Shown: piece after piece, positions 17,426 to 20,770 of the stretch
Layout of the letters: each line of letters opens with the position of its first letter
Numbering within the stretch: the first letter of the stretch is position 1
Virus record (IMG/VR): IMGVR_UViG_3300030107_004993
Span: 1 to 25,294 of that record
Strand: one strand, 5' to 3'
DNA from: a virus
DNA length: 25,294 nt
Program-made: the position numbers and the translations under genes
Notes under the pieces: model-generated
What the model was told of the DNA's origin: nothing
Seen by the model: only the letters and a program-made list of their open reading frames with translations
Databases searched by the model: none

Positions 17426-17620
17426 ATGACTGTAATTACTGAATACGGTAAGCAAAACCTTTTCGGAAAAGAAACACCACCAAGATTAATGAACGAACAA
17501 GAACAAGAGAACCTTCTTCACGATGCTGAAGAACTCAATGGTAGAGCTGCGATGATTGGATTTATTGCACTCGTAGGAGCCTACATAACAACAGGACAAA
17601 TTATTCCTGGTATTTTTTAA
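17426..17620 (+). CDS. hli: High-light-inducible protein
   Basis: 64 residues with a single chlorophyll-binding transmembrane helix containing the HLIP signature: ELNGRAAMIGFIALVGAYITTGQ, given here as ELNGRAAMIGF (Glu and Asn-x-x-x ligands with Arg) followed by the hydrophobic run. The N-terminal half is polar (EQEQENLLHDAE). Such proteins bind chlorophyll and carotenoid and protect photosystems under stress; phage copies are host-derived. It lies eight bases before psbA and shares its structured leader, so both are likely made from one transcript late in infection. Confidence 0.97.
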   Translation: MTVITEYGKQNLFGKETPPRLMNEQEQENLLHDAEELNGRAAMIGFIALVGAYITTGQIIPGIF

Positions 17621-17628
17621 CTTTATAA

Positions 17629-18708
17629 ATGACTACAGCCACACTAACAAAACCACTTAACAACTGGCAGCGTTTCTGTGACTGGACTACGAGCACCAAC
17701 AACCGAATCTATGTCGGTTGGTTTGGTGTTCTTATGATCCCTGCACTATTAACCGCTGCAACAGCATTTATCTTAGCGTTTACAGCTGCGCCTCCAGTTG
17801 ATATAGATGGTATTCGTGAGCCTGTCTCTGGATCACTATTCTATGGAAACAACATCATCTCAGGAGCCATCGTCCCATCCTCTAACGCAATCGGTCTTCA
17901 CTTCTACCCAATCTGGGAAGCTGCAACCATCGACGAATGGTTATATAACGGAGGACCATATCAACTTATTGTATTCCACTTTCTCATCGGTATCGCAGCT
18001 TACATGGGACGCCAATGGGAACTTAGTTATAGGCTCGGAATGAGACCATGGATATCCGTAGCTTATTCTGCACCTGTGTCTGCAGCTTTTGCTGTATTCC
18101 TTGTATACCCATTTGGTCAAGGGAGTTTTAGTGATGGTATGCCTCTTGGTATTTCAGGCACTTTCAATTTCATGTTTGTTTTTCAAGCGGAACATAATAT
18201 CCTTATGCATCCTTTCCATATGCTCGGTGTTGCAGGGGTATTCGGTGGAGCTTTATTCTCTGCTATGCACGGAAGTCTCGTTACTTCCTCACTTATTAGG
18301 GAGACTACTCAATACGAGTCACCGAATTATGGTTATAAGTTTGGCCAAGAGGAGGAGACGTATAACATTGTCGCTGCTCATGGCTACTTCGGAAGGTTAA
18401 TTTTCCAATATGCTAGCTTTAACAATTCTCGTGCTCTTCATTTCTTCCTTGCAGCTTGGCCTGTTACATGCATATGGCTTACCAGCATGGGAGTATCAAC
18501 AATGGCTTTCAACCTTAACGGATTCAACTTTAATCAATCCGTAGTTGCAGCTAATGGACAAACAATACCTACCTGGGCTGATGTAATTAATAGAGCTAAC
18601 CTAGGGTTTGAAGTAATGCATGAGAGAAATGCACATAACTTCCCACTCGATTTAGCATCGGTAAATACATTAGAACCGATAGCATTAAACACACCAGCAA
18701 TAGGATAG
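17629..18708 (+). CDS. psbA: Photosystem II D1 protein
   Basis: 359 residues, full length, no intron or frameshift. It spans the thylakoid membrane five times and carries the reaction-centre cofactors and the manganese cluster. The C-terminal ligands ([14 protein letters not shown], with His-Glu and the final Asp/Ala of mature D1) are intact; the tail after DLA ([15 protein letters not shown]) is the part removed on maturation. The segment [21 protein letters not shown] contains His for the non-haem iron and QB site. Phage psbA replaces host D1, which turns over rapidly, and keeps photosynthesis running during infection. Its codons favour more C-ending triplets in the first half than neighbouring phage genes, fitting host origin. 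Confidence 0.99.
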
Positions 18709-18712
18709 AGAT

Positions 18713-18784
18713 ATGCCAAAAGGAAAAGGAACCTACGGTTCACAAGTAGGAAGACCACCAAAGAAAGGAACTAAAAAGAAATAA
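18713..18784 (+). CDS. Tiny basic GRP peptide (23 aa, AT-hook-like)
   Basis: ATG 18713 to TAA 18782-18784, four bases after psbA. The peptide MPKGKGTYGSQVGRPPKKG... is Gly/Lys-rich with a GRPPKK core like an AT-hook, the short motif that lies in the minor groove of AT-rich DNA. I recall near-identical tiny ORFs (MPKGKGTYG...GRPPKK) in other cyanophages, which makes it likely real. Its QVGRP matches the tandem repeats of the 438-residue protein upstream of the portal. Confidence 0.7.
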   Translation: MPKGKGTYGSQVGRPPKKGTKKK

Positions 18785-18790
18785 AGCCGC

Positions 18791-18857
18791 GTCCGTTCAT
18801 CCGTAATTTTATGGACGCATGAAGCCAAGGCATGGAACGGGGTCTTGGTACTTGGAG
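18791..18857 (+). promoter_or_regulatory. Candidate glutamine-II riboswitch (Downstream-peptide motif)
   Basis: P1 pairs 18792-18798 (TCCGTTC) with 18835-18841 (GAACGGG). Inside it P2 pairs TCCGT (18800-18804) with ATGGA (18811-18815) around an AATTTT loop. The linker GACGCATGAAGCCAAGGCAT follows, and CCAAG (18825-18829) can form a pseudoknot with CTTGG (18844-18848). This fold, and the conserved-looking strings GTTCATCC, GGACGCATGAAG and GGCATGGAACGGGG, agree with my memory of the glutamine-II aptamer from marine cyanobacteria. A second CTTGG at 18851-18855 overlaps the Shine-Dalgarno GGAG (18854-18857), so alternative pairing could hide the start of the following peptide gene. Named from memory and folding by eye. 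Confidence 0.75.
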
Positions 18858-18864
18858 TTATCCA

Positions 18865-18927
18865 ATGACTATTAAAGTTACTTACAAGTATCGCGGCATT
18901 AAGTACACAAAAACAAAAACTATTTAA
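18865..18927 (+). CDS. Riboswitch-controlled short peptide (20 aa, YRG motif)
   Basis: ATG 18865 to TAA 18925-18927, with GGAG at 18854-18857 seven bases before the start. The peptide has a central TYKYRGIKYTK, the YRG-x-x-Y pattern seen in short cyanobacterial peptides of the DUF4278 type and in those that follow Downstream-peptide RNAs. It is strongly basic (five Lys, one Arg, no acid residues). In the host such peptides are tied to nitrogen state; a phage copy might mimic them. The location immediately behind the aptamer is the main evidence that it is made. Confidence 0.7.
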   Translation: MTIKVTYKYRGIKYTKTKTI

Positions 18928-18930
18928 TCA

Positions 18931-19293
18931 ATGAAAACAATTGCACTTGCTCTCGCAGCTACCACCATAGCGTCTGCACCTGCATCCGCTGGAGCTTATA
19001 TAAACACTGAAGTTAATAATGGATATACTGGTTCTGATTACCAAGGTAGAGTAATTGATCTACATATTGGATTTGAAGGATCAACAGAAAAGTTTGATTA
19101 CTATATACAAGGTGGTCCAGCTATAGTTGCTGTGGCCGATGTAGATGGTACTGATACTGAGATATCTGGAAAGCTTGGCGGTACATATAAATTTAGACCT
19201 AACCTAGGTATCTATGGTGAGATTTCTGGAATCACTAATGGTGATGAAGATAATAACTATGGAACAAAACTAGGAGCTAAGTTTACTTTCTAA
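18931..19293 (+). CDS. Secreted or outer-membrane beta-barrel-like protein (120 aa)
   Basis: Starts three bases after the YRG peptide stop, with no ribosome-binding site of its own, so it is probably coupled to it and under the same riboswitch. Residues 1-20 are a classical signal peptide (MKTIALALAATTIASAPASA) with an Ala-x-Ala cleavage site before GAY. The rest has alternating strands with aromatic residues (FDYYIQGGPAIVAVADV, GIYGEISG) and ends with Phe (GAKFTF), as small outer-membrane barrels do. About 100 mature residues is small for a barrel and fits roughly six to eight strands. A secreted protein in a phage is unusual; function unknown. Confidence 0.85.
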   Translation: MKTIALALAATTIASAPASAGAYINTEVNNGYTGSDYQGRVIDLHIGFEGSTEKFDYYIQGGPAIVAVADVDGTDTEISGKLGGTYKFRPNLGIYGEISGITNGDEDNNYGTKLGAKFTF

Positions 19294-19397
19294 TGTCCCA
19301 ACAATCAGACAAAGCTCCTGCTTTTGTGACAAAGCTCACACCAGAGAATCATCACAACAAGCCAGAGGAGCATGAAGAAGACGATAAGAAGGATTAA
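19293..19397 (+). CDS. Small acidic/His-rich protein (34 aa)
   Basis: The ATG at 19293 shares a base with the previous stop (taATG). The peptide (FVTKLTPENHHNKPEEHEED, ending DKKD) is polar and probably disordered. It is the last frame before the terminator at 19406 and completes the short operon that starts at the riboswitch. No family recognised. Confidence 0.5.
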   Translation: MSQQSDKAPAFVTKLTPENHHNKPEEHEEDDKKD

Positions 19398-19405
19398 TGG
19401 ATTAT

Positions 19406-19440
19406 GGGTAGTAGCTTTTACGCTACTATCCTTTTTTATT
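19406..19440 (+). terminator. Intrinsic terminator upstream of the capsid leader
   Basis: GGGTAGTAGC (19406-19415) pairs with GCTACTATCC (19422-19431), ten base pairs with one G-T wobble, loop TTTTAC, followed by six T then ATT. It separates the psbA/riboswitch operon from the capsid gene, implying that the capsid has its own promoter in 19441-19633 or is reached by phage-polymerase read-through. Confidence 0.9.
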
Positions 19441-19633
19441 ATGGTAGAGACAATACATGTTAACTATCATAGGTTAGAGACACCTCAGAGTCGGACCTCT
19501 AACTAATTTGGCTTTTGGCCTGTTACGACAGATACCCATTAGCCGTCATGACGGTGGGAATAGACCACAAAATCTTTAATTTAATTTGCTAGCAGAGAGA
19601 GTTTATACCTTCAAACATTTTAAAATATAGAAA
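19441..19633 (+). promoter_or_regulatory. Structured leader / probable promoter region of the capsid gene
   Basis: No gene is visible in these 193 bases. Reading along: GTTAGAG (19473-19479) pairs with CTCTAAC (19497-19503); GGC/GCC (19510-19512, 19518-19520) form a mini-hairpin; CTGT (19520-19523) and ACAG (19528-19531) close a TACG tetraloop; the palindrome CCGTCATGACGG (19543-19554) is flanked by CCCA (19535-19538) and TGGG (19555-19558). After this the sequence is AT-rich up to the ATG with no clear ribosome-binding site. A phage-polymerase promoter, RNA-processing site or stability element is expected here because a terminator precedes the most highly expressed gene; which it is cannot be said. 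Confidence 0.55.
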
Positions 19634-20770
19634 ATGGCGCAACAGTCAACAGATCATCAGGCTTCGGTAACCGTACCTGGTGCTAGTAATGGAGGAGCCG
19701 ATAGACGAGCCCTCTATTTGAAATTGTTCAGTGGCGAGATGTTCAAAGGCTTCCAGCATAATGCTATAGCTAGAGACCTCGTTATGAAGCGTACCTTGAA
19801 GAACGGTAAGTCCTTACAGTTCATCTATACAGGTCGCACAAAAGCCGAGTTTCATACACCAGGCAACAGTATACTAGGTAACTCCGATGGAGCACCTCCA
19901 GTAGCTGAGAAGACCATCACAGTTGATGATCTACTAATCAGTTCAGCATTCTTATACGAGCTGGATGAAACATTGGCTCATTATGATTTGAGATCAGAGG
20001 TATCTAGAAAGATTGGATACGCTCTTGCTCAAAAATATGACAGACTAACTTTCCGTGCAATAACACGTGGAGCCAGAGCTGCATCCCCAATCACTAAGAC
20101 TAACTTCGTAGAACCAGGTGGTACACAGATTCGTGTAGGTACAACTACAAACGCATCTGACGCTTATTCTGCTACTGGTCTTGTTAATGCGTTCTATGAC
20201 GCTGCAGCAGCAATGGATGAGAAGGGTGTATCTACTGATGGAAGATTCGGTGTTCTTAACCCACGTCAGTACTACGAACTAATCCAACAAGTTGGAGATA
20301 ATGGTCTAGTTAATAGAGACGAGCAAGGTACTTCTCGTCAAAAAGGAAATGGAATCGTTGAGATTGCAGGCATTAAGATCTACAAGTCAATGAACATTCC
20401 ATTCTTTAGTCAGTACGGTACTAAGTATGGTACTGGTTCAGCTACAAACCCAGGAGTTACTGATCCAGGTAATTCAGGATCATTCGTATCTGAAGCTGTA
20501 GAAGATGCTGCAGCAGACGTTACTGGTATCAACAACGAGTATGGTGAAGAGACAGAATTCGCTAACTCTTGTGGAATTATCGGACAACGTGAATCTGCAG
20601 GTATTGTTGAAGCAATTGGTCCACAAGTACAAGTAACTAAAGGTGACGTTTCCGTGATTTATCAGGGTGATGTAATCCTAGGTCGCTTGGCAATGGGTGT
20701 TGATTATGTCAACCCATCTGCTTGCGTAGAATTATTCGCAGGTACTGCTACCAAGCCTTCTGCATTCTAA
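19634..20770 (+). CDS. Major capsid protein (T7 gp10-like)
   Basis: 378 residues (T7 gp10A 344), HK97-type shell protein. Recognisable segments are the N-terminal arm ending in DRRALYLKLFSGEMFKGF, the DLLISSAFLYELDETLAHYD region that forms the long spine helix and P-domain, IGYALAQKYDRL, and the strand-rich A-domain with GRFGVLNPRQYYEL, AGIKIYKSMNIPFF and the C-terminal GRLAMGVDYVNPSACVELF. Expressed as a single frame; no sign of a T7-type frameshift to a longer form. It is bracketed by terminators at 19406 and 20783, a one-gene unit for high expression. Confidence 0.97.
   Translation: MAQQSTDHQASVTVPGASNGGADRRALYLKLFSGEMFKGFQHNAIARDLVMKRTLKNGKSLQFIYTGRTKAEFHTPGNSILGNSDGAPPVAEKTITVDDLLISSAFLYELDETLAHYDLRSEVSRKIGYALAQKYDRLTFRAITRGARAASPITKTNFVEPGGTQIRVGTTTNASDAYSATGLVNAFYDAAAAMDEKGVSTDGRFGVLNPRQYYELIQQVGDNGLVNRDEQGTSRQKGNGIVEIAGIKIYKSMNIPFFSQYGTKYGTGSATNPGVTDPGNSGSFVSEAVEDAAADVTGINNEYGEETEFANSCGIIGQRESAGIVEAIGPQVQVTKGDVSVIYQGDVILGRLAMGVDYVNPSACVELFAGTATKPSAF

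Follow-up and report, generated by a model that had tools for sequence, protein, structure and literature searches.

A glutamine riboswitch of type 2, lying between psbA and the gene for the major capsid protein (MCP) of a T7-like cyanophage, probably controls the translation of a DUF4278-like micropeptide with a single YRG motif, as judged from sequence comparison. The window, i.e. the whole stretch of DNA that was analysed, is a virus record of 25,294 bases (IMG/VR IMGVR_UViG_3300030107_004993). Reading of its open reading frames (ORFs) showed that the genes are arranged as in a T7-like cyanophage, with hli, psbA, the riboswitch element, the MCP gene and tail genes following each other (Table 1). 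In NATL1A-7, P-SSP3, P-SSP7 and other phages, the MCP homologue carries an annotation as major capsid or head protein.

Table 1. Features of the window, ordered by position.
Feature	Positions	Strand	Basis or remark
hli	17426-17620	+	64-aa ORF
psbA (photosystem II D1), upstream neighbour	17629-18708	+	359-aa ORF
Small basic 23-aa ORF MPKGKGTYGSQVGRPPKKGTKKK, between psbA and riboswitch	18713-18784	+	sequence reading
Glutamine-II riboswitch aptamer	18791-18849	+	RF01704 match, covariation
Pseudoknot 5' strand CGUUC, pairs with 18835-18839 (GAACG)	18794-18798	+	invariant, paired 44/44
P1 stem UCC/GGA (18800-18802 with 18813-18815)	18800-18815	+	97.7% paired, changes on both sides
P2 stem CCAAGG/UCUUGG (18825-18830 with 18843-18848)	18825-18848	+	encloses pseudoknot 3' strand
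P3 5' strand GGUACUUG (predicted)	18847-18854	+	directly after P2; covaries with YRG codons
Shine-Dalgarno (SD) GGAG of YRG ORF	18854-18857	+	SD-like motif in 60/75 YRG leaders
YRG micropeptide, 20 codons, MTIKVTYKYRGIKYTKTKTI	18865-18927	+	sequence; homologues behind phage aptamers
P3 3' strand CAAGUAUC (predicted), codons K-Y-R of YRG motif	18885-18892	+	complementary to leader
Phage_OMP (OMP), exported barrel-like protein, 120 aa	18931-19293	+	start 3 nt after YRG stop
34-aa ORF MSQQSDKAPAFVTKL..., fourth ORF	19293-19397	+	start overlaps OMP stop (TAATG)
Structured RNA in MCP leader, separate from riboswitch	19468-19572	+	compensatory changes; model R1 97.7 bits
MCP gene, 378 aa	19634-20770	+	ORF; annotated homologues

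Some smaller elements of this neighbourhood were recorded as well. The DNA of window positions 18712-18766 recurs in the Roseobacter phages CRP-171/CRP-113 (85.5%), and ends similar to that of the MPKGKGTYGSQVGRPPKKGTKKK ORF precede the riboswitch in several loci. The 34-aa ORF gave a weak match to PHROG 23119 (E = 3.5e-5). Another ORF, of 44 aa and with a membrane-like stretch (MKKTIRRINGLWVVAFTLLSFFIMVETIHVNYHRLETPQSRTSN; 19372-19506, + strand), contains a strong terminator-like hairpin of 10 pairs with six T (19406-19431, + strand), which sits between the riboswitch unit and the MCP gene; the C-terminal codons of this ORF overlap the MCP-leader hairpin. A similar reading frame and a similar terminator-like hairpin are present in one further locus (L094).

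The window was compared with Rfam, in which Glutamine-II (RF01704) was the sole family found at curated threshold. The match covers the full length of the model (positions 1-60) with 54.3 bits (gathering cut-off 33; E = 8.9e-11). The first-pass annotation had recognised by eye a Glutamine-II-type leader with P1, P2 and a pseudoknot and had named scoring with the Rfam model as a check; given a full-length match at threshold, this structural claim was right. The pairing of 18794-18798 with 18835-18839 is the equivalent of the PK in the crystal structure (PMC6698751), and the aptamer core nucleotides of the window and its relatives match the description of that structure (PMC6698751). Phage relatives were gathered in two separate ways, by scanning DNA for a pattern of the aptamer core and via the secreted protein encoded downstream. 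A pattern scan of genome contigs gave, for the most part, chance matches from outside the cyanobacteria. In the resulting alignment of 44 distinct phage aptamers, standard pairs occupy 98.9% of the pair cells. The five pseudoknot pairs never vary and are paired in 44/44 aptamers, and the long-range pair C18818:G18840, present in the window, is likewise invariant. P2 is 98.5% paired, with changes on both sides at all six pairs. P1 and P2 are kept by compensatory change, with 93 double-change cells compared to a shuffled mean of 22, while sliding the partners by one column reduced pairing to ≤60%. The aptamer was also found in P-SSP7, NATL1A-7, P-SSP3, P-SSP10, P-GSP1, S-RIP1 and P-SCSP-R27W; no riboswitch was found in Syn5. 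Together, these data indicate that 18791-18849 is a true member of the glutamine-sensing Glutamine-II class. Judged by this family membership, the phage operon would respond to host glutamine.

The short YRG-type peptide expected behind such a leader is indeed encoded in the window (MTIKVTYKYRGIKYTKTKTI), and an ORF with YRG follows 121 of the 129 raw matches to the aptamer-core pattern; of the eight left over, one (L084) has a YRG reading too, and the rest are Prochlorococcus loci or chance matches. The YRG peptide gene is the only gene of the neighbourhood that usually carries a Shine-Dalgarno sequence: an SD-like motif precedes 60/75 YRG starts, as compared to 2/44 for hli, 4/42 for psbA, 1/69 for MCP and 3/50 for OMP. 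This contrast fits SD-based control of the peptide and is in line with the probable translational control implied by the first-pass annotation. Depending on length class, the pN/pS of the peptide ranges from 0.14 to 0.61, i.e. synonymous change is favoured.

The riboswitch was detected in 42/61 host genomes belonging to the same bacterial family, and YRG peptides follow it in 38 of the 45 loci that were read. These host peptides mostly display two or three YRG-like motifs, and 5/6 of those scanned score above the cut-off of DUF4278 (PF14105). The 20-aa peptide of the window gave no Pfam match, nor did other 20-aa forms, and the longer podovirus YRG peptides reached at best 21.6 bits (DUF4278 cut-off 25.3); we therefore do not file the podovirus peptides as DUF4278 members. 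They resemble the last host repeat (LTYRGxxYxK), and the YRGxxY motif behind a glutamine riboswitch is present in phage and host loci. The phage peptide thus looks like a single YRG repeat of the host DUF4278 peptides, a likeness that is strong in motif and context. A 47-aa double-YRG peptide of the T4-like phage P-TIM68 passes the DUF4278 cut-off (26.0 bits).

Three related observations were made outside the podoviruses. The double-YRG peptide of P-TIM68 is preceded by two tandem aptamer-like sequences (L358, 955-1110), one of which scores 28.8 bits, below the Rfam cut-off. The T4-like phage S-ShM2 (L357, 1010-1100) carries an aptamer-like sequence just under the Rfam cut-off before an unrelated small ORF. 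The host Glutamine-II copies that are most phage-like in sequence (L339, L340, L342-L344) precede an ORF of about 56 aa (MNNLLQIREKIKRANR...) without YRG, and the one such ORF scanned had no Pfam match.

The riboswitch and the YRG peptide form the recurring unit, located between psbA/hli and the MCP gene. Among the 55 riboswitch-found loci with an MCP gene downstream, 50 have psbA or hli on the upstream side; without an intervening OMP, riboswitch and MCP gene are a median of 292 nt apart. The phages listed above with the aptamer, from P-SSP7 to P-SCSP-R27W, share this arrangement. In P-SSP7, for instance, the aptamer (20522-20575) is followed by an unannotated YRG ORF, MKVTFVYRGVAYTRVIG, and then by gp10. 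Phage psbA and hli are reported, with reference to earlier work, to be co-transcribed with the surrounding capsid genes (PMC7472177), and the riboswitch may therefore lie in a longer transcript. In two loci of another lineage (L067 and L069, with a terminase-like gene nearby), the riboswitch and YRG ORF stand alone, with a terminator-like hairpin behind them and no MCP gene in reach, which suggests that the YRG peptide is the regulated product.

In the folding ensemble, the coding region stood out as pairing partner of the SD (mean 0.588), and this led to the search in which a candidate helix between leader and YRG codons, P3, was identified. Its 5' strand shares GG with P2 and also contains the first G of the SD; the loop of P3 holds the SD and the start codon of the YRG ORF. 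For 62 distinct pairs of leader and codon strands the P3 duplex energy was -7.6, while swapping the partners gave -5.04 (sd 0.26; 0/1000). In fixed register, 80.7% of positions were paired versus 71.7% (sd 1.6) after swapping (0/2000; 35 distinct pairs). Slid registers gave ≤46% pairing, a control that favours P3 because the register was chosen after viewing the sequences; the swap control is unaffected by this choice. Among 100 leaders, the base that follows UA goes together with the third position of the codon preceding the YRG tyrosine: a leader C accompanies AAG (46/46), GUG (1/1) and AGG (2/2), a U accompanies AAA (15/15) and GUA (26/26), and a G accompanies ACC (2/2), with 8/100 leaders as misfits at this most variable pair of P3. 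Since AAG and AAA encode the same amino acid, as do GUA and GUG, protein constraint leaves this tracking unexplained. In trees of D1 and MCP, leader and codon bases change almost always on the same branches (D1 tree: joint changes 9 vs 8 and 9). Since leader and codons lie close together and could be exchanged as one module, we count about five module types and not dozens of events. None of the host leaders tested displayed P3 pairing, and host switches must thus work otherwise. From the covariation it would seem that codons of the peptide itself contribute to switching the riboswitch unit off.

Other helices were evaluated in the same manner. The first-pass annotation had proposed a CTTGG overlapping the SD as an on/off toggle; this alternative is stable in the window (-7.2 kcal/mol), where it is possible, yet showed no covariation among the relatives and was abandoned. 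For 100 distinct leaders, pairing of the P2 5' arm with the SD gave a mean of -3.12, indistinguishable from swapped partners (-3.14, sd 0.14), whereas P2 itself, used as control, gave -8.05 versus -4.70. A hairpin of SD and start (UUGGA/UCCAA in the window), which the minimum-energy fold of the window had suggested, covaried no better than swapped partners. The minimum-energy alternative, in which an upstream GCGUCC pairs with P1/CGCA, equalled swapped partners as well, GCGUC being present in 8/99 leaders. Enforcing the aptamer did not alter SD accessibility (0.349 versus 0.355) in a fold whose coding part, at 15 nt, was too short for P3 to form fully.

We propose that at low glutamine the aptamer would be loose and P3 would form at full length (eight pairs, including the GG shared with P2), hindering initiation at the YRG ORF. 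Glutamine would lock the pseudoknot and P2 and thereby remove the GG from P3; the weakened P3 would then allow the YRG peptide to be made. P3 shares only two nucleotides with P2, and the switching step would therefore be indirect. Competition with a structure occluding the ribosome-binding site (RBS) has been proposed for the Glutamine-II class (PMC6698751), and the ON direction would be that of the Prochlorococcus type-2 switch, which is reported to activate expression upon glutamine binding (PMC6316151). Where present about 4 nt after the peptide stop, the optional OMP may be co-regulated by coupling. The likely role of the unit would be to report the nitrogen sufficiency of the infected cell. 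As a guess, the peptide could target the glutamine synthetase control system of DUF4278/IF17; in IF17, the glutamine synthetase inactivating factor, the N-terminal part corresponds to DUF4278 (PMC6316151). A reading that we regard as possible, and put forward tentatively, is that of a host-type nitrogen sensor directly ahead of the capsid gene of T7-like cyanophages, on a phage-specific platform in which the YRG codons would close the RBS by pairing with the leader and the peptide sequence, being both product and switch strand, would yield a peptide that tunes the glutamine metabolism of the host during infection.

The protein encoded behind the YRG ORF in the window had been described in the first-pass annotation as a secreted, beta-barrel-like partner outside any described system. 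It belongs to Pfam Phage_OMP (PF24653; 130.7 bits, cut-off 27, positions 2-122 of 122) and PHROG 417, with relatives in 469 phage records, and the claim that it lies outside described systems does not hold. Its N-terminus is signal-peptide-like. As to the putative barrel, the structure model (mean pLDDT 72.3) contains one N-terminal helix and six strands, and fold matches were weak, several of the best being outer-membrane barrels and none reaching E ≤ 0.001. Where OMP follows the YRG ORF, it starts a median of 4 nt after the stop (57 loci). Of the 55 riboswitch-found loci with an MCP gene downstream, which were not selected for OMP, 7 have OMP between riboswitch and MCP gene and 2 have it elsewhere, while in 46 it was not found. 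OMP lies behind the riboswitch more often in the OMP-found loci, a sample that is biased by construction because the loci were picked via OMP. The four-gene cassette, whose recurrence in cyanophages the first-pass annotation had listed for checking, recurs, but only in a minority of loci. With 7/55 loci, OMP as a fixed partner was rejected; it is an optional neighbour, from a cyanophage family that has been described before. Nor do we take the missing SD of OMP to prove translational coupling, given that hli, psbA and MCP mostly lack an SD too.

The MCP leader contains a second covarying RNA structure, which has no Rfam family and stands outside the riboswitch finding. In an alignment of 49 sequences, compensatory changes were seen at 12 of the 20 predicted pairs, one pair showing four types without a break; no Rfam match was obtained even at E ≤ 1. 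Its pattern matched 127 loci, one of which (L019) is a GC-rich chance match. A model built from this RNA found 9/9 of the tested podovirus records, Syn5 with a weak match (E = 0.002), and 0/3 T4-like phages. The structure, with a UNCG-like apical loop, was also seen in L002, L100, L355 and others. Its first hairpin (window 19473-19504; L242, L256, L277, L304, L318) is T-arm-like in some phages, elsewhere a tRNA 3'-end-like sequence replaces it, and in NATL1A-7 (L001) a tRNA-Gly lies just upstream of the element.

The near-constant place of the unit upstream of the MCP gene, at the median distance given above, and the reported co-transcription of psbA/hli with capsid genes (PMC7472177) would also suit a riboswitch that governs the whole capsid/structural operon, by acting on transcript stability, on polarity or on read-through into the MCP gene, with the YRG ORF as a mere leader. 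We consider this unlikely, as the MCP gene has its own structured leader, weakly recognisable even in the riboswitch-less Syn5, the strong hairpin at 19406-19431 separates unit and MCP gene in the window, and the unit of L067 and L069 stands alone with its terminator-like hairpin. If, as the first-pass annotation had it, the YRG peptide and the secreted Phage_OMP worked as a pair controlled by glutamine, this would account for the loci in which OMP directly follows YRG (the window, NATL1A-7 and others). Such a pair appears distinctly improbable in view of the 48/55 loci in which OMP was not found between riboswitch and MCP gene, of three T4-like phages examined in which no riboswitch was detected in the stretch around OMP, and of S-RIP1 and MedDCM-OCT-S04-C24, where OMP lies upstream of psbA and the riboswitch between psbA and the MCP gene.

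The involvement of YRG codons in P3, the synonymous sites that track the leader and the very short peptide could further mean that the YRG ORF serves regulation alone, in which case its codons would be needed as RNA and the peptide would have no function of its own. The host homologues are longer multi-YRG proteins, though, and the G and the distal Y, residues outside P3, are conserved in phage YRG peptides with pN/pS below 1; we consider this reading unlikely. P3 covariation, in turn, may be an accident of the linked inheritance of a few leader-peptide modules, with an expression platform that differs from the one proposed: leader and codon changes share branches, as module exchange would also produce, and the hosts lack such a helix. 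We find this doubtful, given that each main module type (AAG/C, AAA/U, GUA/U, GUG/C, ACC/G) is itself complementary and that these types include two pairs of synonymous codons. Translational control of the YRG peptide by the riboswitch is the reading we prefer.

These findings bear on the possibility that phages sense the nutrient status of the cell they infect, a question made directly testable by the location of a characterised riboswitch class beside the capsid gene in most podoviruses examined. The podoviruses with the riboswitch include P-SSP7, a laboratory model on Prochlorococcus MED4; since its YRG ORF is unannotated in the record, published P-SSP7 infection data could be re-read. P3, if real, would be an expression platform consisting partly of coding sequence and detectable via synonymous codons. 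In the main texts of the open-licence literature we found no earlier description of the capsid-linked position or of P3.

The Glutamine-II class with its conserved peptide (PMC2864571) and glutamine riboswitches in phages (PMC9004378; PMC9602691) have already been described, and cyanobacterial glutamine riboswitches are mainly associated with DUF4278 (review PMC6316151). The podovirus element shares with RF01704, the type-2 switch of Prochlorococcus and marine Synechococcus, the aptamer sequence, the pseudoknot, P1/P2 and the short YRG ORF; it differs from the host copies in preceding a single-YRG peptide upstream of a capsid gene and in carrying the candidate P3, not seen in the host loci tested. 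Yfr6 of Prochlorococcus is a transcript for a 33-aa peptide whose 5' UTR is the Downstream-peptide RNA, likewise with a short conserved ORF (PMC2518516; PMC2864571). Host YRG peptides of 33 aa, equated with Yfr6 by length only, were found here; they have two YRG repeats in a host locus without a capsid-gene link. With DUF4278 (PF14105)/IF17 the podovirus peptides share the YRGxxY motif and the upstream glutamine riboswitch, but they hold one repeat and stay under the Pfam cut-off. The 120-aa protein of the window, a clear member of Phage_OMP (PF24653; PHROG 417), sits behind a riboswitch-YRG unit, unlike other members. Melnitz and Mosig (PMC9004378) and T4-like cyanophages (PMC9602691; PMC9964418) likewise are marine phages with a glutamine riboswitch; that of Melnitz is described as glnA-like and tmRNA-linked, whereas here Glutamine-II and a YRG peptide lie by the podovirus capsid gene.
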